Assembly: GCA_963969365.1 (NCBI GenBank)
Contig: OZ017756.1
Coordinates: 620,001 to 684,000, forward strand
DNA: 64,000 bases
Origin: Asterochloris sp. CNOR1
Lineage: Eukaryota > Chlorophyta > Trebouxiophyceae > Trebouxiales > Trebouxiaceae
Direction: 5' to 3'
Position numbers and translations under genes: made by a program. Shown in pieces: positions 114-35,203 of this stretch. Every line of letters begins with the position of its first letter. Positions within the stretch are counted from its first letter, which is position 1. Below the pieces are notes generated by a model that ran no database searches, was not told where the DNA came from, and saw only the letters and a program-made list of their open reading frames with translations.

Positions 114-539
114 CACGTGCCTACAACCTTGAGCTCAGGTGAAACAGCATGGCCTGGGAGCGAGTGGCTGCCAAGTGCTGCTGGAGACAAGCAGCTGTCA
201 GCCTTGCCCTTGGCACAGGACTGGACCCCTTGGGAGGCTGCCTCTGGCCAGCAGGCAGCCATGCAGCTGCCGTCCTCTGAGAAACCATCTCAGCCTCTGC
301 AGCGCCAGCCTAGCCAACAGCTCACTGCTGCGCAGCCCAGGAAGGCTGCCCAGGCTGGCTGGCAGGGTGCAGATGCCCGCGGTCTGCTTCAGGGCACCGC
401 TGGCTTACCTGACGGCGCCACGGCTGCTGGCAGGCAGCTGCTGCAGAACACTGCCTCGCCAGGAGCGCTGGGACCGGCATGCTCTGTGGGCCCCACCTGC
501 CAGAGCCTGGACGTCACCTGCAAGCTCAGCATCAGCCAG
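114..539 (+). other. First visible exon of the giant gene, Q/A/P/S-rich
   Basis: An open stretch follows an in-frame TGA at 111-113 and ends in CAG at the donor GTGGGT (540). It reads as a Gln/Ala/Pro/Ser-rich segment ending in a short Cys-containing tail (CQSLDVTCKLSISQ), and its phase 0 matches the next exon at 740. No in-frame ATG lies near its left edge, so it is probably entered by splicing from an exon left of the window; the exact acceptor was not fixed. The low-complexity composition makes this the least certain exon of the gene. Confidence 0.4.
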
Positions 540-3500
540 GTGGGTTTTCTCATGGAGTGAGGTGATCACATAGTGTCTGGCGTAGAGTGCTCATCTCAGA
601 TGCCTGCCCTGTTGCTACCTAGCAGCTTATTGGCATGCCCGTTTGATGCACACACTTTACATTGTGCCAAAGATGAGCAGCTCGCATCTGCGCAGCTCAT
701 GACGACAACTGGACTTCAAGATCCTCTGTGTTGCTGCAGGCATTCAGCAACACGTCCAGCGCAATTGCGGCAGGTTGCCTGACCATTTCAACAGCCGGTC
801 AGAACATCGAGCTCCCATCCTCCATCCAGGTGCCTGCACACTGTTGCAGAGCTGCCACCTGTGATGCACCTCTGACTTCTCAGCTGAGCCCTCTGCAGCA
901 TGCAAATACGCTGAAGGCTGCTGCGTCCCATCTTGCATGCTTGCACCAGCCTTAAGCGGAAGGTATGGACCAGGCAGTCCGTCAATGGCTTGATCATGAT
1001 GCTTGAAGCTTTGCGTGCTGCAGGGCTTGCAGAACAACTCCCTGTACCAGGTAGAGATCGTGACAGAGGACACTAACTTCCCCACCCCTAACAGGTGTGC
1101 ACTGCTTTGGTCTGTGACCCGTTAGGGCTGGCATCTGCAAACCAGATCTGTCAAAGTTGGCCTTTGCTGGCTTGACCTGTCAAGCCAACACTCTCTGACA
1201 CTCAGGGACGCCTGAGTGGTGCACGGCCATGTCCCTCCGCAAAGGGCAGCAGCCTTGTGGCTTGTGTTGCAGCAGGGCAGCTAAGCAGAGCCTCCCACAA
1301 CTTTGCTCAATGCAGTCAGTCTTGGTCTGCAACTGCTTCCATGAATGAACCGCAGTGCACAGCAGTCTGTGCTATTTGTCAGCCCTACACCAGCCACAGC
1401 GCTCACAGCAGGGCCCTGTGCAGCTGTGCAGGACCTGCATGCCAGGCGAATCGTGGCAAGATGCCTTTTAAAGCCTCTATGACAAGGCACATCAGGCATC
1501 AATACATGTCGTCGTCTGTGGTGCAGGTCCCCGTCTCCCTATGTCTTCCTCGTGCGGACAGTGGACCTGACGCCGCCCGTGTTTGTGGGGGCTACGCCAC
1601 GTGTGCAGAACATTGCAGCAACCAGCTTTGAGCTGGTTGTCCAGATGAACAAGGCTGGCATGGTCTTCTACATAGTGCTGCTCCAGGTAAGGTGCTGCAC
1701 AGATGGGACTCCAGGGCGCGATGCATCACTGGCTGGCGGTCCAGATGAATAGGAATGGCTGGCTTAACCTGGTGCTTGCCCCAGCCGTTGAGGAGCCTGC
1801 AGCAGTGCGACCTGACAGCTGGCAGATATTGGATGTAGATGAACAATGCTGAGCTGGGGAGGCAAACAGGGTATCTTGGTCATATGCTCAGAGCGCTACT
1901 TGAGCTAGGATTGGCACCTGCAGATTGGAATGTAACGGCTTGAACTTGAGATGTGCCTGAAAAGCCGGGGCGCCAGAGTGGTCTGGTCTTCTGCATGGCG
2001 CTCCTCCAAATGAGGTTACCTGGCAGTCTGCTCTGAGGTCTGTTTAAGCTTTGAGCTGACACAGCGTATAAAGCTTTTGAAACATGGCTGCCAGCGATTC
2101 ATGGTGCAGGCTGCACAGAGTGCCCTCAAGGGTCCACAAACAGCTTGAATGACCCTGCCCTTGAGCCTCTTTCACCACAGGCGTGAAGCTGGCAGTCAGC
2201 TGATAGCAAATGTGGCATGTCGACACCCTCGCGCAGCTCCTGCCAGCAGCTGCAGCAGTCACACCTCATTGGGCTTCGTATCATGACATACAGGCGCCCT
2301 CCTGCCACTGAATGCAACAGCCACACCTCCCTGGGGGTTCATGGCAGGACATGCACGCATGCAATACGCTTTCTTTCTGACATCACCCACCTGCTGCTGC
2401 CAGGGCTCCCTTGCACCCAACTCAGCTCAGGTCATCTCGGCCCAGCAGTTCAACAACACCACGCCAGTGGCCACAGGCAGGATAGCCGTGAACAGCACAT
2501 ACACAGACTACGCCGGCACTGTCACAGGTGTCAGCAAGACCACCTCGTACAATGTGTGGCTGGTTGGCCAGGACAACAACACCAGCCCAAACACCATGCC
2601 CCAGGTGCAGAGCTGCAGACAAGACTTCATGTAGAAATACAGGCACAGGTAGCAGATGAATGCCCACATCGTGTGGGTACCTTGCAGATGTGATGCCTGT
2701 GGACGCATCCTTGGCTCATGCCCCTGCACTGTTTCCCTCATGGGATGCAGTCCGGGCAGCCTGCCAGGAGGCTGTGTGGCATGGCTCAGCTGTGTGGCCA
2801 GGCTGGTTCTGCTTTCCTCATGTGTCCTGAAGCCACATGGGCTGCACTGTGCAGTATCTGAAGACCTTGCTGCTGGCGGCATGCTTCAAAGTCAACGTCA
2901 GCCTGTATAGCTCTTGATGAGCTGCTGCCTCACATTGCCTCTTGTGGCTGACCACCAGACAATGCCTGCAGCCAACGCTGCTCAACGTCAGCACGCCCAA
3001 CACGGTGCCCCCAGTCTACACAGTGGCAGCTGTTGGCAGCTTTGTGGAGGGGCAGGCTCAGCTCACTGTGGCGACAGACGAGCCGGCATACTCAAGATAC
3101 GTGGTGGAGCTGAGCCTCAACCCCAACAGACCAAGCCCAGACCAGGTGCAAACTCTGCTCCCAGCTCTGCAGGGCACAGACCTGTCTCAGCAGCAGCTCA
3201 TGCTCATGTTGCTCACGGTGGAAGGCTTCTGCCACAGTTATTGCACTCATGTGCTGCTCCTGGTAATGCTCTGGGTGCTACGCTGCTGACCTGGGGGGCC
3301 GCGCAGCACGTCAAATCACAGCACCCTGCAGTGGCCCTGCTACTGCTGAGGTCCCCATGCTAAGCTGAGTAAAAGCCCCATGTGCTCAGGGGTGCGTCAG
3401 TGCCTTCCCTGTGCGTCTGCCCAGCCTCTCCCTTGTGCTGCAGGTCTTTTCGGCCACACCAGCCTCCAATGCAGTGCTGGTGGACTCTGCCCAGGTCTAC

Positions 3501-6500
3501 ACAACTGCTGCCAACCTCAATGCGACCGCCACTCTGCACAACCTCACCGATGCCACGCCCTACACTGTGTGGCTGGTGGCACAGGATATGCAGTCGTCAC
3601 CCCTGAGGCAAAGCACTGCCACTCCTGTGGCCTGGACACAGCCACGGCTCACCCCACCGCAGCTGACTGCCAGCATTGTTGCTGGCTCTCAGGCCTCTGG
3701 GCACAGGTCAGCTGTACTGGATACCTGCTGGCCGTGGACTGCACGCCCATTTGTGTTGATTGCAGCCCAGGATCTACCTTGCTGCAGCGGCGACAGCTCA
3801 TCAGCAATGTTGTCCATTTATTTGGCTCTCAGGCCACAAAGTCATCGTCAGAGGCAGCCTGGTCACTCAGCATGCTGGGTCCCTACTGGCAATCCCTGTC
3901 TCTGCCTAAGGGGGTATTTTTGTGCCTCCATTAGACAGGTCTCCCACATGCTGATCCTGTGTGTTATCCCTTCTCAACCCTGACGCATCAGGCTCAGCTT
4001 CAGCCCTGGGCCTGCTGCATGCACATAGTGTGGCATGTATCAGCCTGCAGCTTCACGCTGCTGGTCTCCCTCAACACCTCAGTCACTGTGCACTGTGCGG
4101 TGGCGCCCAGCTTTCCCTAGCCAGATCAGCGCCACCAGCCTGAGTGCTGCCGCCTTGAGCAGGTCTCACTCCCTGCAGTAAACTGGTGACCGCCCTCAGC
4201 GCTGTTCACTGTGTGGGCGGTGCTAGTCGACGTGGTCAATGCCACCAGCCTCCACACTGCCAACCCAACCAAGTGCGTCTGCCTGCAGCTTCACGCTGGT
4301 GGTCTCCCTCAACACCACAGGCGCTGTGCACTATGTGGTGGTGCCCAACTCCCCGGGCCTGGTCAGCGCTGCCAGCCTCAATGCTGCTGCCCTGTCAACC
4401 CAGGCAGCCACTTCTGTCTTCCCAGGCACCACTATAGCTGCCACTGGAGACATCTCTGTGCCCCAGGCATTCCTAAATGTCACGCAAATTGTCACGGTGG
4501 GTAACGCTGCTGGTTGTGGTCTGCAGCCGAAGGGATGCATGCTGCTGGCTTGGCACATGGACATCTGTTATACATCAGCAGCTGAATCGCCTCTGGCTCT
4601 GACTGCAAGGGCTCTTTTGAGCATTGCAGCTGCAGTGCGCCATGTCTGGCTGATCTTGCCCTTCACATTGAGCAACTCAATCAAGGCCACGTGACTTTGC
4701 TGCACATGCAGGGTCTGAACGATTCCTCGGATTACATCGTATTTGTGGCTGGACGGGACACAAATACTGTCCCAGGCCCCAACTACCGCAGCCCGCCCAC
4801 TGAGCTGGAGGTGAGATGCATGTGCAGTGCCCCTGAGCAATGTGCAGGCAGTTCTTGGTGTTGCATCCGGCCATGCAATGTCAATCTTGGACAGCGTCCT
4901 TGTGGTGCAAGAGTTACCGTCTGGCAGATGTCGGAGCTGCTTCTGATGTGCAGCATTGGGCTTTTGCGTCTGGGTGGTGGGTTTTGGTAGAGCCTGTCCT
5001 CAGATGATGCCGCAGTAAACATTTGGAAGGAGAGTAGTGCTCGCCCTGCAGGTGGTCACCCCAGACGTGACCCCGCCACTGTTCACGGGCTCAACGCCTC
5101 TCATTGCAGCAGTGCAGCAGACGGCGTTCACGGTTCTGGTGCAGCTCAATGAGGCGTCACTTGTTTTCTATGCGGTGCTCCCCAATGCCTCGCCCCAGCC
5201 CAACATTGCCTCGCTCATTGCTGGCACTGTCACAGGAGCGCTGGCAAGCAACACAATTCAGGCGACCCAGGTGTGGCATCCAGTCTGGCCCTCTCTAGGA
5301 CTATCCACACCCACATTTACATGGCACATGCTTGGCCTAGCGCTGCCTCAGCAGCAGCAGACTGTGCAGTCTTGATCCCTAAGTCGTCCACAAGCCCCCA
5401 CTCTGCAGCAACTTTACGCTGCATCAAGGATTGCTAAGGGCTCGTGGTGAGCGATTCCACCTCTGAGGCCAGATCCCGCGGAATCAAGTCCCTATGCTGC
5501 CAGCCTGGCCCTCTCTGCTGCAGGCTGTCACAAATTACACCAGCCTGGTGAACCAGAACCTGCGCAATCAGGTCACCTACCAGGTGTGGTTCATCGCCAG
5601 GGATGTGGTGGGCAATGTGCAGGCCCAGCCAACAGCAGTGAGCGTCACCACTGTGCGGACTGCCCCTCCGGTGTTCCAGTCCCTGCTGGTGCAGTACATT
5701 CCTCCCACGACAGCTTACGTTGAGGTGAGCCTGCCTGGCCAGACACTGGACACAAGTTGTGACCTTCTGATGCTCAGTGGCTCTTGTGTTACGTGCAAGA
5801 GGGCAGGCTTGGTACCAGACATGAGATGATAAAAATGACTCTGGCTGGAAACACATTCTTGGCCCTGTGTGGCCTGGCCTGCAACTGGTCACCAAAGTTT
5901 GCTTCCAATGAGTAACCAGACAGAATGGCGCTCCACTTGGCATATGGCACCATGCATGCGATACCTGATGCGCCCACCACACTCAGGGGCTCCACGTGTG
6001 CTTCATCTTCAGCCTGGGCCTATGCAGGTGGTGCTTGATGAGCCCGCCACAGTGCACTACATTGGACTGCTCCAGTCCCGCGACCAAGGGCCGCCCAGCT
6101 CCTCTGCTGTGTACAGCTGGTTGGGACTGAACGGCCTGCAGCCAGACTTCAATGGCACCATCAATGCCACACAGGCAGGCGTGCCCTTCTCCTCAGGTCA
6201 GGCCCAGCTGAATGGCCTGGGTGGCTGCCTTCATCTGGTTCTTGGAGAAGGGCTGCACAGGTGCACCATTATTGCTCAGGATTCTGGGCTTGCAGGCCAG
6301 CCATTGTCAGGCCAGGGTCTGGCCTTGCTCCAGCTGCATGCCAGTGGCACTGTGGGCTTTGTTTTCAAAGCCTGCATGCCAGACATTGCTGGGCATCGTG
6401 CTGAGCTGAGGATTGCAACCGCAGCGCTGCTGCAGCCTGCCTAGTTTGCAGCAGCTGCTGCACCCTACTCACAGCAGCCAACACTTGCCCGTTGACCTAC

Positions 6501-9500
6501 TGCTGCCCTGTTGCCCTGCAGGCTCCTGCGGCATTACTCAGGGCACAGTCTACAATGTCTACCTGGTGGCCCAAGACTCTGTGTCCCCCCCCAACCTTCA
6601 GACGGCTCCCTCCTTGCGCGTGCTCAACAGCTCCAGTGCCAGCAGTGCTTTCACCTGCTCACCGAGCACCTTCACCCAGCAGCTCCGGCCCACACTCACC
6701 ACCACCAGCTCCAGCCCTGGGCTGCCTGTGGGGCAGTTCTACAGTGATGGCACTGGTGACAAGTGAGTTCTCTGCAGATTGTCAGGGTTCTGAGGTCCGG
6801 CCGCCTGCAGCTGCCTCTAGTTCCTCAAGCCAGCAGGCATGAGGCCTGTGTTTCTTCAGCCAATCTGTGGTGATGCTTGAAATGTTGCAGACACACTTGC
6901 TCCATGGGACTCTAGCATGGCTTCCTGCAAGTACCAGAATATGCAGACAGTATATGGCACCATTGATGCCATCGCCTTGCCATGCAGCTTCTACCGTGAC
7001 TTTTCAGGCTTCAACAACCGAGCCCCAGGCACGCCGGGCCAGCTGCAGGCGTATGTCAACTCCTTTGCCATCCCCACAAACAACACCTTCAGCTTTACCA
7101 CGCAGCCCCTGTCGCCTGCCAGCATTGTGGCCATCGTCAGGACCACAAACCCTTGGATTGAGCAGCTGCCCAGCAGCGCGCCAGATGTGAACGAAGGCCT
7201 CGTCATGAGCATACAGTGAGTGACAGACGATAGTGGCACCTGGCTCTATTGCAGGGGACTACAGCTGCTGCTGGACTGCTGTGGTAAACTGCCCAGAACA
7301 GCACCCTGGAGGGTCATGAGCATTGAGTAGGTGAGATGCATCCAGTGAGCGAGAGAAAGTGCCACATCAGGCTTTGGTGGCTGAGGCCATGACGCAGCAC
7401 GCCAGTGGCACTTTTGGTTTTCAGAGGTGCTGCTTTGTGCCAGAAATGGTGTTGAGGGCAACCCTGAACACCTTCATGGAGGGAGATGCGCACTGCGGCA
7501 CCAGTTCGTGGTGCCTGTAACCCTACCAGCTGAACTGGCATGGGGGACTGCCCTGACTTGCTTCCTGGAATGCAAAGCTCTCACCCAAGGCGCTGCAGTC
7601 TAGCTGCACAGATTGCAGCACAGCCAGACTTGCACTGAGCAGGCTTGTGAACGCCGCACCTCATGCCGGGCTGTGCAGGTACCAGCTGGCAGACCAGTAC
7701 GGCCACACACAGATCACCACATCCAACTTGGCCATTGTGCCCCAGATCACTTACACTTCTGGGCAACCCTCCGGCCAGTCTTCAGTGGTGAGCGCAGCAG
7801 CAAGCCGCCTAGCCTCGTCCCTCCACTCAAAGCATCTGCCCAGTCACTGACTTGTCACAGGGCCTGCTTGGAAGCCTGCCAGCAGGTTGCCTCGCAGCTC
7901 AGCGCTGCTTACTCTCTGGTGTCATTGCCAAGCCCGGGCATCACTGACAGGGCTTTGCATCCAAATCCAGGCAGCCACTGGGCTTGCCTTTGTGCCTGCT
8001 CCTGAAGCCCTGGGCACGCTCCTTGAAGCCCCAAGCTGATCGTCCCATGTTCTTGTGGTGCAGGTCGACCTGGGCACCTGCAACACAAGCGCTATTGCAG
8101 CTGCCAGCAGCGGTTCGGCGAACTGCAACTTCCTAGTCTCTCAATCACTGTTCCCTGCCACAGGCAGCGCAGCTGCGGTGGCCAGCCTGGCCGTCAGTGC
8201 ACGCATCAGCAGCACAGAGGTGGCCAGGTCTTCAGCCACCACTGTACGGCTCAACCCCTCGCCTGCACAGCCTTCAGTCTCTGCTGTGACCATGGTGGCC
8301 ACAGTGCCATACAGAGATTTGTATGCAGGTAATCGGGCTTGGGCACTGCAGCAGCTGAGATCCGTATTCATGTAACGATCCCACACAGGTGCAGAGTGCC
8401 TGTGCAGTGCGTTGCAGTTCAGGTCATCATGTCTCAGGAGAGCTAGCAATCCTCTGACTTGTTGTCTGTATTGGGCTGGCAAACATGACACTTATGCTCT
8501 TGACAGCCATCTGGTGTCCCCTCAGGTGAGACTTTCACGGTCAACATTGTGGCCAACAGCCCCAGCGCTGCAGTCAGCAACTGGGTCATCCCGCTGTACT
8601 TCAACCCAGCTGTCATCACCTACACCAGCTATACTGCAGCCTTAACCTGGAACACACCCATCTCCAACATCCAGTCCACCACCCTGGGCGGCACCACATA
8701 CCAGTGAGGCTGCTCACAGCCCTGTCATACCTGCCTGCCATGCAAGCAGCATCCAGCCCACCCACACTAGGCAGCACATTCTGGAAGTGAGCCTGCACAG
8801 AGTTCTGCGGGGCGTGTGCGTGTGCATCAGCTGCATGTTCTGTCCAGGCAGCACTCTGTGCAGCACAGCTGTTAGTATTCCTGCTGCGCCTGCTGCCATC
8901 CAAGCTGGCTGTGACTGCAACACGCCGCTGTGCTGATGCGCACCAATGCTTTACCTGGCCGTGAAGGGCTGCACAGTCCACTACACCCCTCTAGACACCA
9001 CGTCATGTCTCATGGCCTGGCCACCTTCTCTAACAGGTCAGGTGGCAAGTGCTGGCGCTGCCTGTCACTTCCATCATCTTGCATGCATGCAGGTACTTTA
9101 CACTCAATTGCCCTGGCCGAAACGGCGGCAGCTCAAACACAGCTGCTGCCCAGGGCAGCAATGTGAGCCTTGCCACCATCCAATTCACAGTCAACTCTGC
9201 AGCCAGCACTCAGCTGTACACAGGTGTTCTTTTTGTCGGCCGCAACTCCGCATACAGCAACACAGCGAACCTTGTGCTGACCACAGACAGCAGCTTGGGA
9301 GCAAACATTGCCACCAGCTTCACTGCTCAGGTATGAGCATGATTCGCGCTTGGCCTGCTGCCAGCAGACCATGAGCATGCAGAGTGTGAAAGGCTGGCTT
9401 CAATGTTGCAGGAAGCATGCATCTATGCCTAGCTTTGAAGAGCAGAATAAGCCTGTGACTATTGCATATCTTGTGACAGATCATGCAACTGCAGGGTGCA

Positions 9501-12500
9501 GCTATTCAGCTCATACTGCCTGGAGTCCTGGCATGTCCACGCCCCAAGCCTGCTGCACATGCAGGTCAATGACAGGCGGGGTGGGGCACAGACACAGGCA
9601 GAGCTGTCTGTCGTGGCTTCATCCACCATTGGCATCTATGCCTATGCCGCATCCAGCGAGCTTTTCAACACTGCCCTGCTGAATGGGCAGGCCGTCCAGA
9701 CCATTGTCCAGGCCTTCCTGTGAGAGCTGAGCTTATGCATTCACCTGCTTGCTGCTATGCCCCAGGGTCACTCATCACCAGCATTGGCTGTGCTTCTGGT
9801 GCAGTACCAAACAGGAGCTTAATTGGTGCCCATGCCTGTTGACTGCTGCCACCATGGGGCTTTGCAGGCTTTGTGCACATGCTGAGACCTCTGCTCAAGA
9901 GGACAGCCTGCCTTCAAGGTATCTGACACCCCGCTGCTCCACTCAGCAATTGTTTTACCTTGCAGCGTGCGCAGCTGGTACCGAGACTCTCTGGACGGCA
10001 CCTCTGCGAGCAGCAGCATCAGCTGCAGCGCCTCAACCAATGGCAATACCTTCAGCACCACCCTGTCATCCTCAGGGTGCCTGGTCGTTGCTGGCTCCAG
10101 CAATGCTGGGGGCACCAACCAGGCGGCGCTGTCAGTCACGCTGTCTGGCTCCACCAGCTTCACTGTCAATGTGAGCCCAATGGCGCTGCAGCCTCTGAAA
10201 GGCTGCGTCGTCAAGTGCTCCTGAAATTGCAGCAAGCTTGCAGGGCTGCAGGCATTTACATCCTGCTGCCAATGAGGAGTGGCCTTGAGCCATGCGCATG
10301 TCGAAGCCTGTGCCTGCAGCTCGAGGTCCACCAGGATGGAGCGGCAGCTCAGTGTTGGGGAAGACCTGAGCCTCAGTCACCACTTCCCATAGCCACTTTA
10401 CCACTCCTGCTGGCTCAGGACAACCCTGCAGTGTTGCAGGCGCCAGGTGTCGATGGCTGCCTGGCTGCTGGAATGGCAGGAACGCCGCTCTGTACTGCAT
10501 GCGACAATCATTATCTGAATGCCCCAGAGGCATGGCACCTGTGGCTGTCAGGCTGATCCGCATGTCTTTGGGGATGGCTCTGAGTCGCACCTGCCCCTCC
10601 AGGTTCCAGTCTCGATCTGGGTGCCTCAGAATCTGGCAGCTGTGGCAGACAACCCCACCCTCAGCCGCCTGCTGCCAGATGCCAACCGCAGCGCAGCGAC
10701 AGGGTGCTCCCAGCCAGCCTTCCAGGCCACCACACTCCGTGCCACTGCTGACTTTGTGTGCCCAGGGCGCACCTCCATCACTGGCGTCGATGTGTCCAGC
10801 CTGGTCACCTTCAGCAGCAGCTCCAGCCAGGTGGCTGTGTCAGGCACCGCGCTGCAGGTGAGTCACCCCACAAGGCTATGACTGCCTGCCATCCATGCAT
10901 GATGCATCAGCTGAGCTTGACTGCTTGCTGTCCAGTACCACTTGCTGTGCTGCTGCATGGGCTGCTGATCTTGCAGAGCTCAGGGCCCAGCAGTGCATCT
11001 ATGAGTGAGCCAGCAACTCCCTGCTATTCCTAAGTGCTTTCTAGGGGTTCAAGTGGCGGCTCAGCCTGAGATGGCTTGGGCTGCTGCTGACGTGAGAAGT
11101 CACCGCAGGTCGTGCAGGCACTTACAAATCTGGTGGCAATGCAGGGACTTTCAGCTGGCAGTAGCATTCCAGTCACTGCACAGGCTACTGCCCTCACCGC
11201 CACAACTGCTGTCCAAGTGGTGGACAGCTATGTGTGCCTCACCAAGATCAGTGTTGTGGCTTACACAGGCGGCCAGTGGCTGCAGCCGCCATCCACTGTG
11301 GGGCTGTATGGCACCACCACAGCAGCATTGAATGCTTTCCAGGTGAGCAGCTCTGTGCTGAACTTGGTGCAATGGCCTGTTGGGTGGTGCCTTGAACACC
11401 ATAACAGGAGCGCTATGTGATTGCTGCAGCTCTGCACCCTGTTGCTGAGGCTCAAAGCCGACGCTGCTCAGTCTTGCGGGACACAGCTCTATGTGCTGCA
11501 CTAAATGGATAGCCCTGCACTTTCACAATCCCTGTGTCTGCGCAGGCCTTCAATACTGAGCAGGCAATAGGCGTCATCAATGCGTATGCTTCCTTCAGCG
11601 ATGGCAGCCGTCAAGAGGTCACTTCACTCCCGGGTCTCGCTGTAATGTCTGCAGCTACAAGCTACTTCACTGTGTCCAACAGCTCAGGAGGCATCTCTGT
11701 GAGGCACCCAGCTCGTACAGTGCCTTGGCACTCATGGCCGCCCCTGTCATGAGGGATTTCTGCTTAATCAACGCTGTAAAGTCTCACTGCCTGGCCCCCT
11801 GTACACAGCTGCATCACCTGTGCAACGTTGCAGCTCTGAATACCGAGTTCATGCAACAATGCAGACGCAGCAGTTGCACTGCAGCTCAAGCTGCAGTCTG
11901 CTGAAGACTTCATTTTGCTCATCTGCCAGCATGCAGCAAGTCGCAGCCTCATTGTGGCAACCAGCCGGAACCATGGTAGCCAGCCTGTAATGACTGCTGT
12001 GCAGGCCCGTGTGACAGCCCAGTATGGCTCTGCTGCCTACTGCGACCAGGGGCTGCAGGCTCTGCTAAGCGTGTGTGGCGTGCAAGTGGGCACAGGCAGT
12101 GGGCCTGTGCAGGTTGCCCTGCCGCAGGCTGTCTCCATCTCCTCTTTCACTGCTGTGCCTGGCCAGATCACCAGGTCAGTGATCTGTCAGACAGGATGCT
12201 GTCGTAATTCCCCATTCATGCCTGCCTGGGGTACCACTGCACATGTCTCAGGCAGGATGTTTGGGGCGATCTGACTGTCCAGCACCATGATGCATCCTGG
12301 AGTGCATCCAGCAGCAGTCCAACACAGGCGCTGCATGCCAGCTCTCAGGAATGCAAAGCTGAGAACTCAGGCTGACTGACACCCTTGCAGGGGATCTGAC
12401 GCTGCAGCACAGCGTCCGCTGAACATGCCCACAGCCGCCAACCTTGATGTCAGGCTCAGATTCTCCGACGGCACCACCAGAGACTTCACCAACGACACCA

Positions 12501-15500
12501 GGGCTGTCTTTGTTGTCTCCTCGGTGAGAGATGGGGCGGTTCTGCACCACTTGGCGTGCCACAGTGCCAAGCTATTGCATGTGAACTGTGTCATTTCTCA
12601 GCAGCAGCAGCACACCTAAGCACCTCTGCCCGCCGCAACTGCTGCATTCAAGGCTACAAAGACACCACTCACCCTGGCTGCAGGGGTCCACCCTGTGCAC
12701 AGTCACACAGCCGGGCAACAGCAGCCTCCCACAAGTAGCAGTGCAGTCATCTGCAGCTGCGGGGATCACAGGCGCGTGCTCAATCACTGTAACCTTCCCC
12801 TCACTGAACAACAGTGCGCTGTTGGCGACAGCAGTGGTGGCGGTGGACAGCTTGAGTGCGCTGACCCTGCGCACTCAGGGGTACGACTACACAGCTGCAA
12901 CGGGCAACCTGGCAGCGGTGGCGTCCAACACCAACCAGTACAGCACCCTTCAGCAGATTGCTTGCCACCCAAGTGACTATGAGCAGGTGGGATTGGTGCT
13001 CTCCTGCTCTGTACGTCATGCGTCCCTGGGTGATCAATGTTGGACTGCTCGGAGATCTGAAGGGCTGAGCATGACTACTTGGAGGGAATGCAGCTTGGCA
13101 GTGGAGGGGTCTCAGTGTCGACCTGCTGTCTGCAGGCGACTGTCTGGCTTCTGGCTACGCTTACCAATGGGTCCACATATGATGTCACCACGGTGAGTAC
13201 GCCTGGGGCAGGGTAACCTGGAAGCTTTTAGGGGAAATGGACGACCACCAGCAGCTTCTGCTGACTTGCGGCATTCTCCGCGATTCAGTTGCCCACCCTC
13301 CCCAATGCAGCTTGCTGAAGTCTGAAGAGTTTCTGCCCACGCAGCTCCTTGCCTCATGCATGCTGTGCATGCTTGAAATTCAGCACTGCAATGCTCCCTC
13401 ATGCAGGCCCCAAGCACCAGCATCACCTCCTCAGACCTGACCACCATCAAGTTCAATGCCAACCTGGGCAACACAAGCCTTCTCAACCGCCTGCGCCCCC
13501 TACAGCCCGGCAGTGCCACCATCTCTGGCAACTATGGCGGCAGCAGCGCCAGCGCCCTGGCTATCTCAGTTGGTGGGCCGGGCGCAGCTGTCACTGTGCA
13601 GAGCATGTCGCTGACAGCCATCTGGTGCACCAGCGGCAGCAGTGACCCACAGTGCCCCATTACCTTTGCTGCCACCTACAACAGCAGCCAGGTGCTGGAG
13701 GTGAGCTCAGGCCTCCGCATCATTTTGCCTGAAATGCTTTGCTGTGTAAACTGTTAAGTGTTACTGGGTCACCTGCGCCAGTTAGTTGGACGCTCCTGCG
13801 TTGTGTCCCACCCAAATGATCAGCCAGAGCCCTGAGCCGGAGGTGCAGAAATCCTTGATCTGAATGCAGCAGAGCTGATGCACTGGTGTCATTGCCTCGC
13901 CTGGCATGCACATGCCAGCCGCAGTTGATCCGCGCTACTCAGTGTGCACTGTCGATGCCTCGCCCAGCACCCCACCAGCACATTCCAAAGTCCTTGTTGC
14001 TGGGATGGCAGGCCATGTCAGGATCAGTCAACTCCTCCACTTCTCACGGTGCTGAGTGTGCTGCAGGCCGCTCTGACCATGAGCGATGGGTTCCAGTACA
14101 GCAAGGTGCTGGGAGTGGCGCGAATTTCCCTGGACATCCTCAATATCAGCGCCCTGCTCAGCTTTTCATCCAGCCAGGTCGGCACAGCACTCGCACAGAA
14201 GTCAGCCTGTCTGTGCAGGCTGTAATCTGGTTCCAAGTGCCCCATGGGAAACCCCACCCTCCAGGGGGTCCTAGCTCGGCTCTTGCTGCGTTTGTGCACC
14301 TTAGCGTGCCAGCATGTTGCCCTGGATGCTTGATGCTGCAGGTGTGACCTGCAGGCTGCCTCAGAAAGGGTGCCACAACCAGTGCTTGCAGGGCCCCGCC
14401 ATCAGCATGCTGCCTGACGAGATGCTTGTCCACACCCTGCTGCTGTCATGTGCATACAGCGTGCGCGCACTGCAGGTGGCTGCCATCAATGTGCTTCCCT
14501 GTGGGTAGCAGGCGGCTGCCATTGATGTGCTGCCCTGTGGGTATGCAGGCGGCTGCCATCACTGTGCTGCCCTATGGGGATGCCGTCCTGCTGGGCAACT
14601 ACTACCAGCCAATCACGCTGACAGCTGCCACCCAGCCTGGCTGTGGCGCCTCTGGCACTCTAACAGCCAACCTGAACCCTGGGGTTTTCGCCAACCTCAA
14701 CCCCACCGAGCTGGACGTGGATGTGGGGCAGCCCTTTGGGGCCCAGCTGCAGGCGCAGCCAGCCAACTCGCCTACAGTCACCTACCTGTCAGTGGGCAGC
14801 AGCTTCTCCATGGATGTGCGCGTCAACTCTGCCTCCTCCCCACTCATTGCATTCCAGGTGAGGGCCTGCTGGATGCAGGCCGGCACTGCATCCACTGCAG
14901 GCAGGCGGGTAGAGGACTGCACCAGACACGTGATGCCTGCAGAGTGCACTGCTGACCTCAGGTAGCTGAGCACAGACTCATGCTGTCGGCATCCCAGCAT
15001 CTGCATGATACACTCAGCGTGCATGGGTAAAGTCTGCCATTGGGAGCCTTGATGAGCCCCTCCACTCCCTCGCATGGTCCAAAGCCTGCTCGCAGCAGTG
15101 CAGTCTGCATGCGGGCGCTTGGGCAGCTCCTGCCCTGCTCTGGCCTTGCGTGGGCCACTGGAGCCACAAACCCCTCAGACTGCTGTGGGCCCCTGCAGGT
15201 GCAAGTCACCTTTGACTCCAGCCTGCTGGCTGTCCCCTCCCAGAGCAGCTGCTCCCTGGGCACCGATTGGCAGAGCGCCTTTGTCTGCAACGCCAAGGGC
15301 AGCAACTCCTCAGTCTTCTTCAACAGCGTGGACCAGTCAGTCAACAGTGCCAAGCAGGGCACAGCTGTCAGCATTGCTACCATCACCTTCCAGGCAGTGC
15401 AGGTGAGGAGATCTCGTGTACTAGCAGCACGACCGCTGCCTCAGCTGCGCTGTATCCCCTGCATCATTGCTCCATGTAGGGTAAAATCCATGCAATTCTG

Positions 15501-18500
15501 AGGTTTCATTGGCACTCTCAAGGCTGCTGGAGCGTCAAGCAGCAAGTGGAGGGGGCTCATCTCTCCTTGTATGCTGTGCCATGTGGTGCGCTGCTGGGCC
15601 TGCAATTCACTGGTGATTCTTTGTGGCCATCTTGGAGTGCAGGCACGATCGGCTTGTCCCTCAAAAGTTTTTGGCTGCACCCTGCAGGCTTGCGCCTTAG
15701 GGTGGCCTCGCCCTGCGCGCATGACTCCTTTGTCACGCCACACACCTGCCCCACGCTCCTGTGCTGCGCTCTGCAGGCGGGCGTGGGCAACATCAGCGTG
15801 GCCATCTTTGGCCTGGCACAGGCCAGCGGCAGCAGCATCCAGAACGTGGCAGCCCGCGCAGGTGCAGGGCAGTTCTCCATTGGCAACCCCTCCGGGCGGC
15901 GCCGCTTGTTCACTGCAGGGACAGCCCTGCAGCCATGCGATCAAGCAACGGGGGCAGATTGGCCTGCACACCAGCTCATGCTGCCCCAGCAGAGCCTACC
16001 CAGAGCGTTGGGCCCGCCTAGATTTAGCCAGGCTGGTCAGGCGCGCCAGCTGCTACAGACATGCACTCAGGCTGTCTCAGCAGGGGTGTTTGGCGACATC
16101 AACTTCGACTGCCAGTTCATTTTTGTGGAGGTGGGCTTTATTTTCAAGTGCTCTCTTCCAAGACTGCAGCCAGCCATGCTGGAGATGCCCCTCCGCAATG
16201 CCAGTCTGGCACCTGCCCTACCCTGAAGCATCCTGCTCTGTGCTTCACTGCTGCCTCCTCTGTGCCTGCAGCCAGCTGCGCTGGCCCCATGCGCACACCT
16301 CATGCTTTTGGCAGAGTATATTTGCTGTGCACCTCTCTGATTGCGCCCATCCCTTTGCTGCTCTGCCTGCAGGATGTTGTGCTGCTGGACTCCATATATG
16401 GCACCTGGGACTCTGGCAACCCCAGCAATTACTACAACAACCTGGACGCAGGCTCTGTCAACGCTGGGCCCGGCGGCCAGCCCACGCAGCACCAGAGACA
16501 GGAGCTTGATATCTCATACAAGTAATGCTCCCCTGTTGAGCCACATCACCGCTGCAGTGAATGCCCTTGGACTGTCCTAGCTTGTGTACCTCCATATCTC
16601 TCTGGATATGACTGCTCAAAATCAGACCCTCGCAGCCAACACGTCTCTCACCCGCCCAGGGTACTGCATTGCATGCTGCAGCATGTTCCCTGGGAGGGGC
16701 TACGCAGAGGGGTGCAGGCACATGGCAGTTGCCCCACATCAAGTGAATTTGCTAGTGCTGCACAGCCCGCTTGCTGTGCCTGCAGCTCACTGCCACCAGT
16801 GTCACCACAGCGGATCCCCAGCTGCAGCTGCAGAATTGCCTCCCCGCTGCAAGCCTGTGGCCCGAGCCCAGATACTGTTGCTGCCTACACATACCACTCC
16901 ACATCGTTCTGCAGACACTGTTGCTGCCTACAGATACTTCTCCACATTGCCCAGCAGCGACAGCAACTACATTCCTCGCCCAGACGGTACTTCTCCACCC
17001 AACCTGGGGGCCCTGACAAATGGGGAGGTGGAGCAGCGCCCTGGCAGCAAGGAGGACAAGGCCCTTTACCAGGTCTGCAGATCTGTGGCTGCTGTTTGCA
17101 ATGCTCTGTGAGGGCTGCGCTGTCAGTGGTGGAGAGCTTGACTTCTCATCAGGGCCTGACCACCAGCGTGGCAGAGCAGCATCCTGGCAGCAAGGAAAAC
17201 GAGGCACTTTATCTGAGTTGCTGGTGGGCGGCAGAGGATGTCCCCAGCTGGAGGGCTTTCCTGTGGGCAGCTGATCAGCAGCTGTCTTGCTGAGGGGCGC
17301 GACACCAGCCCTGCACCTCTGACTGCAGAGTACCTCTGCTGGCTGCAGCTCATCAGCGCCCGCCTGCAGTACTTCCTGCAAGGAGTGTTCGTCACCCTGC
17401 CCACCGCCGGCAGCCAGGCGCTCAACATCACTGTGCGCCTGTACGACACAGCCTCCAATCTGGTCAACACCAGCGCTGGGATTCAAGTCCAGGTAGGCAT
17501 GCTGGGCACAGCAGGCCGTGACTACAAGATGTTCCTAGTGGGCTCAGCCCCTGCCACTCTGCAGTCAGCCTGCCCTTCAGCCAGCTCTAGTGTGAACATC
17601 CCTGCAGGCCTGCCCTGCACCCTGCACAGACTTGAGGTGGAGCCGGTCAGGGCTCTCTGTGCTCACGTGTGATAGCCTGCCCAGATGTCTTGCTCTGCCA
17701 TCCACGGTGCTGTACCCACTGGCACGCTGTCACCCCAAAAGCATCAGCAACGTCCAGTCTGCCGTGCAGAGAGCGGTGCTCACTTGTGCTCTGCACCCTG
17801 CAGGTGGAGCTGCAGACCGCCGTTCCCCTGACCTTCTCCAACCCCAGCGCCCTGACAGCCGGCAGCGCCCGCACCCCTGCAGGGACCTACCTCGCCACAG
17901 CTGACATGCTCAGTGCAGGGAACTTCACTGTGTCGGCGGCCACTGCAGTCAGCAGCAGCACTGGCTGTGGCTTTGCTACCAGCGGCAGCATGGGCATTGC
18001 AGTCCTGGTGCTCAGCTTTGACGCCACAGTGAGCGCTGTGCTGTGCCTCTGATGGTGCAAGCTGCCTCAAGGATACAATCTGTTGGCTGGCGCCACGTAG
18101 GGCACTGTGCAATACCATGGGTGGTGCAGGCCACTCGGAATGTCATGCTATGGCTGTTCTCGGCCAGACTTGCACATGAGACACATGCTGCCTACCCCGC
18201 TAACATGCCTGCAACCCAGTGGCTGCAGATGTGTGCTGCTATGCCACAAGGCTTGCATCAGGCCTTGGCACACCTCACGAATGCGCTATCAGCAGTGGAC
18301 TCGCTGCATGACACTGCTGCCAGTACAGCCCTTTGCACAAGTCGAAATCCTCATGAGTGCAGGGCGCCCCGCAAAACTCCTCTTTCTATCCATACTACGG
18401 CAGCGCTCAGGCCTCCCTCTATAGTCAAAATACCAGCTCCACCTACAAGTCCACTTTCACACCCTACACCACCATCAACCTGACAGGTGACACGTGTTGT

Positions 18501-21500
18501 CTCCACTCCGACAGCCGCTGCATTAGCCTTATTGCGTGTTGAGGGCCTGCTGTGCCGACACGTACCCTCCTTTGCCTTGTTGCTTGCTGGAGCGCTCAGC
18601 TGCCTACGCTGAAGCTCCGCTGTGCTGCTGTGCAGACATATACGCCCCTGCGTACCTGCCAGGCTTCCCCACAGCCAGCAACATCAATGACACAGGCTTC
18701 ACACTGAGTGTGGGCCTGTACAAGCCTGCTGTTGTGTTTTACGAGGTGTGGCCCACCAGTCAGGTGCGCGAGGGGCTTGCACACAGCCAATTTCTGTGAA
18801 GGGTGTGAGTATAGAATGCCTGGTGTGTGAGGGGCATAGCCATGAAAACTTTGGGCGACAAGACAGGAGGTCTAGCTCTTGAGCCAGGTGTGCAGGCACT
18901 GCTGTCCAGGGTTTGTCCCCCAGATCCCCCACCAAGCAGCAGGTTAAGCTTCCACTGGGCAGTGCCCTTGTCTCTCCACAACTCTCGCTGCTGCGGCGCA
19001 GGTCAACTCCACCTCTGCGCTGCAGCCCACTGTGGCCAATGTCCTGGCAAGCAGCGCTCCCTCTGGGGTGCCAACGCCTGTAGCTGCAGGGCAGTTTGGA
19101 CAGGCCACTGGCACCACTGCCCTTTACTCCACTTCTGTGGGTGGGCTCACGCATGCCACCAACTACACGGTGAGGGTGTGTGTTGCCTGAGCCTGGCAGG
19201 TCTACCTGCACAAGAGCTGCGCCTCAGCCCATGCTGTCTGCAGCACAACGGCCTCTCTAGGGCTGCCTGCAAGCTGTCTACCTGCTGTGTGCACTTCCTG
19301 CCCAGGCCTACCTAGATGAGAGCAAGGCCAACATCTGCCTGCTTACATGCCAGCATTGAGCTCTGCCTTCACCCCGCAGCACTCACGCATGCCGGCAGCC
19401 ACCTCTTGTGCCGGAGCTTGCCAGCCTGGGGGCTGCCGCTGCTGGCCCTTCACTGAATCTGGCCCTGCCTCTGTGCAGGTGTTCATGGTGGCGGTGGGAG
19501 CCAACAATGTGACAGTCAGCCAGGTCTCTCTGCTGCAAGGGGTAGTCACGCCTGACACCCAGGCCCCTTCCTTCACCGGGGTGTCTCTGGGGGCTGTCAG
19601 CATCAACCAGACCAGCGGCAACTTCAGCCTGAGCTTTGGTGTCAACACCAGCGAGCCCGCCACCGTGGACTATGCCATCTACAGGTGGGCTGCAGCGCTG
19701 CCAGCAGGTATAAAGAGTGCACATGAGGCCCAATGGCCTGACATGGACAACACAGTAGATCTACGGGAGACAGCGTGGGTGTGCGCCGACCGGCTTGCAT
19801 GTGTCCACATGCAAGTGTTGCGCTGACCCTGGGCTTCCTCTGCCCCAGTGCATGGTGCCACCTGTCTTCGCAGCAATTCCGTCTGAAGAAGTCCAGATCT
19901 GAACATGTGACTGCCTCTGCTGTGCTGCTGAAGGTTCGCAACCCCACAGTGCTGTTGCTTCCTGCAGGAGCTACACCTGCATCATGGGGGACCCCTCAGC
20001 AGCGCAGGCCATTGCAGGCGCCACCCTCCCCAGCTCCGTCTGCAGCTGCACAGGCAGCCAGGAGTGCTCCGTGGTGTCCTCCAGCAACTTCAGCGCCAGC
20101 CAGGCCGGGGCCAGCCCAGTCCTGCAGGCAAGCGCTGTCCTGCGTGGTGTGCATGGCTCACATCTGCAGCTCGCGACTTTGGTGCCAGTCAGACTCGGGC
20201 AGTTCACTTCTGCAGGCATGAAGCCCATGATGACATGCGCCCATGCCTGTTGAGTGCATGGCCCCACTGTCTGCTGCCTGACGACCGCGAAGCCCAACAG
20301 TCAGCAGTGTGGCATGCAAGCAGCCACATGATGTGCAGTTCCCCTGCCCTCCTGACTGCTTGCTGCCAGCCGAGACCATACTTCGCTTGGTGACGCACAG
20401 CATGGCAATGAATTGGCAGGCGCAGGCGCCAAAAACCGGCCACCTCTTGCTTGAAACCATACCATGAGGTACTTGCTGCAGGGGGCTCTCTCACCGCTGC
20501 CATTTGCCTCCCTGGCAGGGCTGCCAGCAGCCAACCTCACCTGCTTCACCACAGGGCTGGCTCAAGCCACAGACAACTATGAGGTGTGGTGCCAATGTGT
20601 CCTGTGCAGCCCACTCACCACATTCTGGCACATGGTGTTGCGGCCCGCTCAAGCAGTGCAAGCTGGGCAATCTGCCGCCCTTGTGCAGCCAGCGGCCCTG
20701 CAGAGCACATTTTGTATGCCGCTTTCAGAGGCACATCAAATGTGGATGGCCGCCTCTGCCAGAGCCCCTTGCTGAAGCTGGGTTGCAGGCACTGGCTGGC
20801 TGCTCCAGCCCCCCTCACTCTAAATCCTGTGCAGGTTTACTTTGTTGCCCAGGACATCTTGACAACATACAATGGCCTGAATGCCAGCTGCTCCCCTGTG
20901 TCCACCATCGCTGCTCCAGCCTCAGGGTGCCCCACCACTGTCAGCATCTCCTGCCAGCAGGTGAGCGACGCTGCAGCAGTATATGTCTGGTAGGCAGCGG
21001 CCCAGCACCTCTGCAGGAATTAGTCAAACCCATCTTTCACACCACACAGCAGCTGCTCACAGCAGCTCTGCCATGCAGTTCCTGCACAGCACTCCCGGGC
21101 TGCACCTCAGCAGCACACACACACCCCCACACCGCCTTGCCTGGTCAAAGTGGTGACCCCCCAGGCTGTACCTGACGGCCATGCTGATCCCATGGCCATG
21201 CAGGCTCGGCTGCGGCCAGACACGCAAAACACGCAGAGCAGCCCCTATGTGCAGTGGACTGTCCAGTCCAATGGAACCCTGACCTATGCCTCCACACCAG
21301 GCACACAGCCGCTGAAGGCCCAAGTGAACCTCCAGAACACTGGACCGCCCCAGTTCCTGCCTGTCACCTGCCCGTCTGGCAGCATCTGCCCCAACTCTGG
21401 AACCTATCCCATCTTTACTCCAGAACCGGTGAGGTGGTGCATGCCTTTGAGTGTTATGCCACGCTGTGGCTGCCGTGAGTGGTTCTGCCTCTGCCAATCG

Positions 21501-22111: not shown

Positions 22112-22794
22112 TCTGTCTTCTTCTGCTCAGTGCTTTTTGTTTCTGCTGCTGCGCTAGTGTGAAATGTAAGGGCTTCAGGTCATCCATGATCCATTCAGGC
22201 TGTTGCAGGTGGGGCCAAGCCCTGGCAAAATATCGATTGCAGCCTGCTTTGGCACCAGAGCAAACTTTTTTCCACATGTGTGCTTCAGCATACTTTCATA
22301 AAGATGCACAATGATCAACAAGTGTTGGGTGCATGCAGCTTGCTAGCCAGCTGGAGCTCCAGATGGGCTCCGGCTCAGCATGTCTATCCAGCTGGAGCAG
22401 TTCCTTCACTGCATCACAGCCTGGACCTGCCAGTCAGTAATTGGCAACCCTGCTGGGGTCGCCAGCAAGCATGATGCAGGGGGGGGTCCTGTATTTATTC
22501 CCAATTTGAGACTTGGAGATGGCCACTTGATTGCGAACTGCCAGCCCAGATATGCAGGTTGTGGTGTGCGCTTATGATGCCATCTTGACACCTTAGCAAC
22601 ATAAATCGTTGGATTAGGGGTTCATTACACAGCTTGTTGACAGTGCACAGCTAGCATCTTCTTCACGACAAGTGTCAAAGCTACACAGAGCCTGGGCGAC
22701 TACTAGTACACTGTAAGGGGGCTGCCTATTGGGACAGCAGATGCTGCATCCCTTGCGGAAAACAATTCATTCAAAAGGTACACCATCTGTTGGT
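22112..22794. other. Convergent intergenic region with TGTAA signals on both strands
   Basis: No coding exon is recognised between the stop of the giant gene (22111) and the stop of the minus-strand TBC gene (22795). TGTAA occurs on the plus strand at 22712-22716, about 600 bases past the plus-strand stop. On the minus strand it lies at 22629-22625, about 166 bases past the minus-strand stop. TGTAA is the common polyadenylation signal of chlorophyte genes. The two transcripts would overlap at their 3' ends if both signals are used. Confidence 0.45.
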
Positions 22795-32716: not shown

Positions 32717-35203
32717 ATGTGTGGCAGGGCCAGATGCACTCTCTCAAGGGAAGAGGTCATGGCAGCTGCATGTGTGGGCCAGGACCAAGCAACTTCTTGG
32801 AGAGATGAACAGAAATATCATCCTAGCGCCAACGTCGGTCCAGGTCAGACAGCAACTCAAGTGGGGCATTGGTGCCCTGCACTGTTCTCCACCCAGTTGC
32901 ATGATGGGGCTTTCAATGGAATCTGTATCCACTGGCTAAATGAGGAGTTGGTGTTAGGGCTGGCGAAGTCATAGTTTACAAGAAGCAAAGGGCTGCTCTT
33001 GTCAGTCCTGCCCCAAAAAAGTTTGTGCTCTGCCTTGCTTGCAGGCCACCACGTCCCTGTGGTGAAGCGCAGCAAGGACGGCAACCTGGAAGTGCACACC
33101 ATGAAGTGAGTGCCCCGCATTGCTGATCTGGAGTGCTATTTACGTTTTGCCCCTGCACTTTGTCTTCAGATTACAGGCTGCTGTGTCTGCTGCCAGTACA
33201 CTCTCTGTGCAGAGACTGTGATACTTGCAGGTGGGGCCTGGTGCCCAGTTTCACTAAGCCTGGAGACAAGCTCGACCATTTTCGCATGGTGAGAGCTTGG
33301 AAGGCTGCCCAGCGATATGCAGGAAACCAAAGATGCCTGCGCCTGTCTGCAGCTCTGCAGCGCTGCATAACTCTTCAGCGCTGCGTTAAACCCGCAAGTA
33401 GTCAGTTCAAATGGTCGCTGTCGCGACAATTCTCTAGTATGCATCTCTGTGCGCTCTGATGCCTGACACTTTGGCATAAGCACAGCACAACTCCTCCTGC
33501 CTGCACCCTGCATGTGCTGCACTGCAGTTCAATGCCAGAAGCGAGACAGTCGCTGAGAAGGGGATTTTCAAGCGCCTGCTGGCCAGCATGCGCTGCATTG
33601 TTCTGGTGAACGGGTTTTACGAGTGGAAGAAGGCAAGCTGTGCCTGAAGGCTCCTACAGCACATCCTGCTCCTGGCAAAGTACCGCATGTCCACCAGCCA
33701 GTTCAGAGGCACTCCACATTGTCAGGGAGCTGCAGCGCATGCACCTCCTGCACAGGATTTCACAAGCCCAATCTCTCAGCAAAGTTGCAGCGAAGGCTGT
33801 GTTGCAGACACTTTGCAGATGCAGTTGTAGCAGTATTGCACCCTGACCTGCCTACGGCAACAGGCTCATGTCTTCAGGCTCATGACCACAACCTCCTGCG
33901 CCACAATGCACAGGTTGCCAGCAGCATCTGGAGTACACTCTGGCAGACAAGGAAGCAGCCCCATGCAGGCAATAGTAATATTCTGCAGGGTGTGGTGTTG
34001 ACTGGAGCATGACAGCTGCTCGGCGTCTGCTCCCAGGAGTATCTGTGCACAACCTCTACGTATCAGCACGCAGATTCCTGCAGGAGGGCCCTGGCGGTGG
34101 CAAGCAGCCCTACTATGTTAACTGGGGGGACCGCCTGATGCCCATGGCTGGTCTGTTTGATGTGTGGTCAGCCGGAGAATTGTCAGAGCCCCTCTACACC
34201 TTCACCATCCTGACAACTGACTCCTCCAAGCGTTTGGCCTGGTGAGCTGGTGGCTGCACCCACTGCAGTTTTAGCACCCTGTGTGCTGGCTTCTCTCTGC
34301 AGGGTTGTACTTCATCGCCTGCACCTTGCATTGCCCTGAGTGGGGTGGTGATCTGATGTAGATGGCCTATTCAGATATGTGTCCAGATATTTGAAGTCAC
34401 CCTGTGCCCCTTGCAGGCTGCATGACAGAATGCCTGTGGTGCTACCCACACAGCAGGCACGAAATGCTTGGCTCGGCACTGGGGACCCAGCAAGCTGCAA
34501 GTAAGCTTCCTTGGCCCCCAGGCTCTGTCACATTGCTGGTTCTGATTGCATGCTGCTCAACTTGCCACATGTCTCCCAAGCTTGACGCCATACCTGTCCA
34601 CTCCTGACCTCGATTGTGTACAGTCTGGGGAAGCTGACCATGCCCTACAACGACGAGGATTTGGTCTGGCACCCAGTGACCAAGTCAATCAACAGCGTCA
34701 GCTTCCAGGACCTAAACGCTTGGAAGCCTGTCAAGCAGGCCAACATCGCCTGCTTCTTTTCCAAGGCAGGTTCCAAGAGCTCGTCAGCAAGCAAGGGCAG
34801 CAACCCCGCAGAGGAGCGGAGTCACCAACAACATAAAGCCAGCAGTGTACAGGATGCTGCTGAGCCTGACCCAGTAGCAGGGCAGCTGAAAGAGGAGAGT
34901 GGACCTGTCAAGCAAGAACCGACCCATGGGGATCTGGCACAGCTTGAAGCTCAGCCAGCTCCCAGCGATCAGGCTGCACCTCTTGCCTCCGCCATTCTGA
35001 ACACAGATGACGCAGGGGGTGTTGTGGAGTCGGAGGCTGATGTCAAGCAGGAGCAGCAGCATGAAAATCACATGCAGCCCCCTTTGCAATTGAGTGGAAA
35101 GAAGCGAACCTCAACTGCCCAGACTCCTGGCAAAGGCAAGAAAGCCAAGCCTGCTGGCACTCAGTCCATCTCAAACTATTTCAGCCCTAAAAAAACAAGC
35201 TGA
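32717..35203 (+). CDS. HMCES: HMCES / SRAP-domain abasic-site DNA-protein crosslink enzyme
   Basis: SRAP proteins shield abasic sites in single-stranded DNA by forming a thiazolidine crosslink through Cys2. Seven exons join in exact phase: 32717-32843, 33045-33105, 33231-33288, 33528-33632, 34084-34241, 34417-34500 and 34624-35203, giving 390 residues. It begins MCGRARC, leaving Cys2 after Met removal. Other family marks are V-G-P-G-H-H-V-P-V-V, W-G-L-V-P-S-F, F-N-A-R-S-E-T (Asn84), N-G-F-Y-E-W (Glu114) and H-D-R-M-P-V (His172), matching the active-site Cys, Asn, Glu and His. The C-terminal 150 residues are acidic/Gln-rich with basic clusters. They end T-Q-S-I-S-N-Y-F (377-384), a PIP-box-like PCNA motif with Thr in place of Gln. 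The intron after 33632 uses a GC donor. A TGTAA signal lies at 35338. Confidence 0.95.

Follow-up and report, generated by a model that had tools for sequence, protein, structure and literature searches.

A TMEM132-type cohesin-Ig core in a predicted surface protein of the alga Asterochloris sp. CNOR1

A predicted gene in Asterochloris sp. CNOR1 encodes a cohesin domain directly followed by an immunoglobulin (Ig) domain of the type that stands fourth in the animal TMEM132 proteins. The stretch analysed, referred to as the window, comprises 64,000 nucleotides (620,001-684,000 of contig OZ017756.1); coordinates are those of the window unless stated otherwise, and negative numbers lie upstream of it. 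Both domains reached significance in profile searches, and their combination in an algal predicted surface protein is genuine and unusual. We consider it probable that a single large gene encodes an extracellular protein with a TMEM132-type core here, that surface adhesion or wall scaffolding is its likeliest role, and that the core shares ancestry with TMEM132 rather than having been assembled independently.

Cohesin and fourth TMEM132 domain

Scanned against Pfam as isolated pieces, the first cohesin (cohesin 1) matched PF00963 with an E-value of 3.5e-6 (27.7 bits, cut-off 24.1), and the Ig domain right behind it matched Ig_TMEM132_4th, PF16070, with an E-value of 3.2e-7 (30.6 bits, cut-off 27). 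The PF16070 match spans profile positions 2-97 of 98 and crosses two introns (9634-10627); the matches of both families bridge splice junctions in phase. A 359-amino-acid piece was matched by both families together (PF16070 27.0 bits; PF00963 26.2 bits, E 1e-5). Eight control sequences were made, and seven, none of them from cohesin 2, were scanned (four reversed, three shuffled); neither PF00963 nor PF16070 was matched in any of the seven, the best control match to any family having an E-value of 0.046. An NCBIfam scan gave one noise-level match (E 0.0033, 16.5 bits against a cut-off of 250).

A first-pass annotation of the window had described a TMEM132-like series of motifs at 8526-10857, and the quoted motifs are indeed present in the order given, on exons with GT-AG splice sites that connect in phase and contain no stop. 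The cohesin-like exons, ELFNTALLNGQAV (exon 9565-9719) and VSIWVPQNL, which opens exon 10603-10857, lie inside that range. The strands FSDGS (exon 11546-11698) and FSDGT (exon 12391-12523) lie outside it, yet within 8526-14177. A search of the Pfam TMEM132 and cohesin families, which the annotation had proposed as a check, yielded the significant PF16070 and PF00963 matches. The earlier observation is thereby confirmed, while its interpretation is partly supported by the sequence comparisons given below.

Gene model

The predicted gene comprises 51 exons in 25,646 bases of the plus strand and encodes 3,427 residues, with a sole stop at the end after manual splicing. Its start ATG, the first in-frame ATG of the opening exon, is located at -3534 (contig position 616466), about 3.5 kb upstream of the window, and the stop codon TAA occupies 22109-22111. 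The sequence TGTAA, the green-algal poly(A) signal, follows at 22165-22169. All 50 introns have GT-AG borders and lengths of 135-717 bases (median 298), and the exons join in phase. A self-training gene finder had given many tiny false exons and was replaced by an exon-by-exon scan with curation by open frame, splice signals and phase, including 20 kb of upstream sequence. The model differs from the best-scoring exons at 11 ends (start exon, 139, 6755, 6891, 11109, 12391, 14177, 16130, 16934, 20148 and last exon). The ends 6755, 16934, 20148 and 139 were selected to preserve phase, and one small scored exon, -1849 to -1795, was omitted. Over 8064-10857, the stretch of the cohesin-Ig core, every exon of the model is the best-scoring one. 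Since the two wrong frames were also open in 30 of 102 exon readings, an open frame by itself is weak evidence; the weight of the model rests on phase consistency and on the domain matches bridging introns. Such matches cross six exon joins, the last one by two residues only. The 3' splice region before exon 14549 (14470-14560) consists of about three tandem copies of a GCAGGYGGCTGCCATY...GGTA-like unit, thus alternative acceptors are possible before this exon.

It appears quite improbable that the model fuses two or more genes or contains wrong exons, so that the order of the modules in one protein would be unreal. The choice of exons by our own scoring and by hand from genomic sequence alone, the 11 deviating ends with four of them fitted to phase, and the open wrong-frame readings would allow such an artefact; it is opposed by the joining of 51 exons through 50 GT-AG introns to a frame with a single terminal stop, by the six joins crossed by domain matches and by the best-scoring exons throughout the core.

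Modules around the core

Further 3' in the gene a second cohesin and a dockerin-like loop were found, both missed by the first-pass annotation. Cohesin 2 matched PF00963 (E 2.6e-6, 28.1 bits) on a piece trimmed to 113 amino acids, and a 190-amino-acid piece gave no cohesin match; in pairwise BLASTP it aligned with cohesin 1 at an E-value of 4e-5 with 27 of 102 residues identical. About 100 residues behind this match stands GDINFDCQFIFVE-DVVLL, a single site in the protein. Loop positions 1, 3, 5 and 12 are taken by acidic or amide residues, which we take to be the pattern of a dockerin calcium site. A strict dockerin-like pattern, chosen after the site had been seen, occurred in 4 of 20,000 shuffled proteins. 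The dockerin family PF00404 gave no profile match, one loop-like motif and no second repeat was seen, and the loop piece found no match in the PDB. The DNA pattern GD[VIM]N.DC was present at four sites of the genome (this gene and three chance-like ones) against three for the backward control, and a profile search of the genome with the dockerin family returned one sub-threshold match only (E 2.64).

The core is embedded in repeats, about 11 as counted by eye (about eight N-terminal, about three C-terminal), eight of which were aligned. In single-sequence scans of the pieces scanned they matched no Pfam family, FN3 included. A profile of the eight repeats searched against the PDB ranked fibronectin first (E 0.002 and 0.0028), and 14 of the 22 sequences listed were fibronectin, NCAM, Dscam or binders that we presume to be FN3-based. 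The flanking repeats are likely FN3-like, and the embedding of the core between FN3-like repeats, as first proposed, is probable for both sides.

The strongest hydrophobic segment comprises amino acids 38-62 (about -3423 to -3349, some 3.4 kb upstream of the window), with a mean Kyte-Doolittle value of 2.97 over 19 residues, and is situated behind a basic segment. A C-terminal transmembrane helix was not found, the 12 most hydrophobic windows all being at amino acids 37-66; this hydropathy run had the last four exons out of frame, and the corrected C-terminus is an FN3-like repeat. As the one strong hydrophobic segment is N-terminal, this end probably serves as the anchor of the protein. The segment points to a type II surface protein or to secretion. 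The lack of a visible membrane anchor noted at first is true for the window; the gene model includes the hydrophobic segment, which had escaped notice because it lies outside.

The 3,427 amino acids include 57 N-x-S/T sequons, 50 cysteines and only 24 lysines. RVxF-like (PP1) patterns had no match in the whole predicted protein, and at least 12 loose WIRS-like strings were located at amino acid 66 and beyond, among the repeats and domains that follow the hydrophobic segment. The basic linkers NPSRRRQL (amino acid ~475, exon -663 to -273) and NPSGRRRLF (amino acid ~2610, exon 15777-16130) resemble each other, are far apart in the protein and could be processing sites.

Homology or independent assembly of the core

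Several observations weigh against the proposed reading of the gene. In longer constructs PF16070 stayed near its cut-off of 27 (26.1-27.2 bits; E 3.8e-6 to 8.4e-6): it was the sole match in a 1,524-amino-acid piece (27.2 bits), in which cohesin 1 went undetected, and fell slightly below the cut-off in a 508-amino-acid piece lacking the cohesin (26.1 bits). PDB sequence searches with cohesin 1 or with the whole core returned no cohesin; cohesin 2 found a single match, the scaffoldin ScaE (E 0.28), and both cohesins together obtained four matches, with two scaffoldins (E 0.2-0.3) behind an unrelated transporter. For the cohesins these searches are at most suggestive. The region preceding cohesin 1, a candidate for the "conserved region" (CR) of TMEM132, matched no Pfam profile; two cysteines and an LFP motif are seen by eye and may resemble the animal sequences. 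The fifth TMEM132 domain (second BIG) was unmatched by TMEM132 profiles up to an E-value of 10, a search in which HMMER filters may hide weak matches; by eye, the stretch 10603-11342 may resemble the second BIG domain of animals. For the sixth domain, PF23487 was obtained in one framing (E 0.023, 15.1 bits against a cut-off of 27.8) and was absent in two others, which is the noise level of the control sequences (E 0.046 for other families). A PDB search with the FSDGT piece listed adenovirus PIX (E 0.012) and then antibody-type chains (E 0.03), no clear Ig match, and an alignment of six Ig-like stretches was too divergent for use. Among the repeats, the two fibronectin chains at the top had no single passing stretch, the score being a sum over several repeats. 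Finally, the gene model is a prediction from the genome only. Profile matches support the TMEM132-type order claimed at first for a significant cohesin followed by a significant fourth domain, and they do not reach to the full five domains.

A generic cohesin and a generic bacterial-type Ig domain may have been combined independently, so that the PF16070 score would reflect general Ig similarity and not TMEM132 descent. The marginal scores in the long constructs, the unconvincing matches of the subsequent domains to TMEM132 profiles and the affiliation of cohesin 1 to the general PF00963 and to no TMEM132 family are all compatible with such an assembly, which is nevertheless unlikely: the piece that matches PF16070 has no match to a generic Ig, Big or FN3 family, only to DUF374 (E 0.077) and DUF515 (E 7.9) besides, its Ig match is placed exactly as in TMEM132, right behind the cohesin, and the controls were clean. 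From these comparisons, common ancestry of the cohesin-Ig core with its counterparts in TMEM132 and the holozoan cadherins is the likelier reading.

Host genome and origin of the core

The host genome has 56.4 Mb in 21 contigs. The chlorophyll-binding family PF00504 was represented by 31 exon-level matches, one of them on the 2.76-Mb contig of the window (contig position 1524542), in agreement with the green-algal setting assumed by the first-pass annotation. Three PF00504 loci were read, and two of them carry a sequence of the green type; the host is probably a green photosynthetic alga. That the locus is foreign DNA, animal or other, contaminating the assembly is close to refuted: the chlorophyll-binding-protein exon is borne by the same contig, and nothing was found in favour.

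The flanking repeats have a third-position G+C content of 0.71, which falls within the 0.63-0.81 spanned by the core segments, hence there is no sign of a recent import. Searches of the genome for paralogues yielded none, neither with the core protein, with limited reach across introns, nor with cohesin 2 and the dockerin-like region; a further match to the cohesin 2 region (E 0.04) was read and discarded, nothing alike being present. All 10 genome matches to the FN3-like repeats were inside the same gene. The DNA pattern [LF]-x-NTA-x-L-x-G had seven sites in the genome, and the six outside the gene had no related context and were read as chance. Profile searches of the genome with PF16070 and PF00963 were empty even at this locus; introns split the domains, therefore these searches are silent on copy number. 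Scans of viral contigs and a protein scan of genome contigs revealed no relatives, and phages gave two matches with an E-value of 0.8; all these searches reach close relatives only.

Above its cut-off, PF16070 was absent from 35 prokaryote genomes picked from 80 listed loci with a dockerin-like pattern, from 392 genomes in the phylum of a Planctomycetales record, from 227 in the phylum of a Thorarchaeota record and from 14 controls. These prokaryote negatives are weak because no positive control existed. A weak PF16070 match in one of the 35 genomes (E 0.003, 18.8 bits) was rejected, its locus having a long open frame that we take to encode a RimO-like enzyme.

Horizontal transfer of the core into the alga, with an animal, choanoflagellate or other eukaryote as donor, or transfer in the reverse direction, instead of ancient descent, would fit the finding of no related locus elsewhere in the genome or in the viral and genome contigs scanned, within the reach of close relatives. 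We regard a transfer as unlikely, as the exon structure and the base composition of the core match the rest of the gene and the core sits within a long, native-looking protein; a prokaryotic donor is further, if weakly, opposed by the PF16070 negatives in the sets of 35, 392 and 227 genomes.

The published domain analysis dates the cohesin-Ig architecture of TMEM132 to early holozoans and also mentions the two N-terminal TMEM132 domains among "more diverse eukaryotes" (PMC6030884). Descent from early eukaryotes is held likelier than transfer and likelier than independent assembly. It is conceivable, and we offer it tentatively, that the cohesin-Ig core predates the split between plants and animals and survives in a green algal surface adhesion protein with its own cohesin and dockerin-like loop, the neural adhesion family of animals having arisen from a pre-animal cohesin-based adhesion system. 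No paper on an algal TMEM132 core was found among those listed by a search covering few subscription journals, and automatic annotations of such algal proteins may exist.

Proposed role

The protein would begin with an N-terminal hydrophobic segment, either a type II signal anchor or a signal sequence, followed by about eight FN3-like repeats and the TMEM132-type core; behind the core, more probable Ig-like strands, the second cohesin with the dockerin-like loop and about three FN3-like repeats would follow. Adhesion and scaffold proteins are usually constructed as a chain of FN3 and Ig-like domains with an anchor at one end, and cohesins are protein-binding domains. By this analogy, a surface location and a role in adhesion are most likely. 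The protein would most likely act as a long rod on the surface that attaches the cell to its wall, other cells or partner organisms; binding would be the task of the two cohesins and the Ig core. One cohesin might bind the dockerin-like loop of the same or of a neighbouring molecule; this is a guess, and a cohesin-dockerin style of binding is rather doubtful.

A homologous algal core, if true, would be a module older than the early holozoans or one mobile between kingdoms, and would provide a non-animal system in which the ligand of the module can be sought. TMEM132 genes have been linked to hearing loss and panic disorder in humans, and dockerins are described as undetectable in vertebrates (PMC6030884). 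The algal protein would offer a eukaryotic case in which two cohesins occur together with a possible dockerin partner.

Feature positions

Table 1. Features of the predicted gene within the window (aa, amino acids)
Feature	Position	Strand	Basis
N-terminal FN3-like repeats, window part	139..6602	+	exons 139-539 to 6522-6755; run starts upstream
Candidate conserved region (CR) before cohesin 1	7785..8328	+	position and by-eye motif: two Cys, then PYRDLYAG
Cohesin domain 1 (aa 1570-1694)	8316..9274	+	end of exon 8064-8328, exons 8526-8703 and 9093-9330; PF00963
TMEM132 fourth-domain Ig/BIG (aa 1736-1841)	9634..10627	+	exons 9565-9719, 9966-10170 and 10603-10857; PF16070
Putative position of second Ig-like (TMEM132 fifth) domain	10627..11325	+	order only
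FSDGS/FSDGT-bearing stretch that may comprise several Ig-like domains	11546..14177	+	weak sixth-domain match at 12434-12738
Cohesin domain 2 (aa 2483-2575)	14789..15780	+	exons 14549-14857 and 15199-15402, first residues of 15777-16130; PF00963
Dockerin-like calcium-loop motif GDINFDCQFIFVE, then DVVLL (aa 2679-2700)	16092..16397	+	motif only; across intron 16131-16372
Region of unknown family between dockerin-like loop and C-terminal repeats	17349..18486	+	exon model; no Pfam match up to E 1
C-terminal FN3-like repeats to stop	18486..22111	+	exon model, repeat alignment

Elsewhere in the window, an open frame on the plus strand (34586-35200) contains MPYNDEDLVWHPVT and ends with the C-terminal FSPKK; by eye it resembles HMCES/SRAP-type DNA repair proteins.

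Comparison with TMEM132, holozoan cadherins and cellulosomes

In animal TMEM132 proteins a CR is followed by a cohesin and three BIG domains, for which adhesion has been predicted (PMC6030884). With this family (TMEM132A-E, TMEM-132 of C. elegans) the algal protein shares, at significance, the cohesin and the succeeding fourth domain, the first BIG/Ig; F-S-D-G strands stand behind the core in both, and both are probably membrane-anchored with a large outer part. They differ in the hydrophobic segment, which is N-terminal in the alga, whereas the animal helix is described near the C-terminus (PMC6030884). The algal protein adds repeats on both sides, the second cohesin and the dockerin-like loop, and has neither an RVxF-like match nor a tail behind a C-terminal helix; its fifth and sixth domains are not significant. 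Judged from its sequence, it cannot be counted as a full member of the TMEM132 family: it lacks both the C-terminal helix and the PP1 motif, and its fifth domain is unmatched. The cytoplasmic C-terminus of C. elegans TMEM-132 is reported to bind GEX-3, a protein of the WAVE complex (PMC7962252). Nothing like this tail is visible in the alga, so any function in common with the animal protein would be confined to the outer half.

In lefftyrins, coherins and hedglings, larger adhesion proteins of choanoflagellates and sponges, all five TMEM132 domains are described in unchanged order (PMC6030884). By description, they resemble the algal protein in that the module is set into a large protein with repeats; these repeats are cadherins in their case and probably FN3-like in the alga. 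Pfam cadherin gave no match in the scanned pieces, with amino acids ~486-711, 951-1070, 1192-1262 and 2952-3330 outside the scan. In comparison with the cohesin-dockerin systems of bacterial cellulosomes, the alga lacks a Pfam dockerin match, a second dockerin repeat and the layout of scaffoldin and enzymes, and shares with them two cohesins above the cut-off and one loop with the pattern of the dockerin calcium site.

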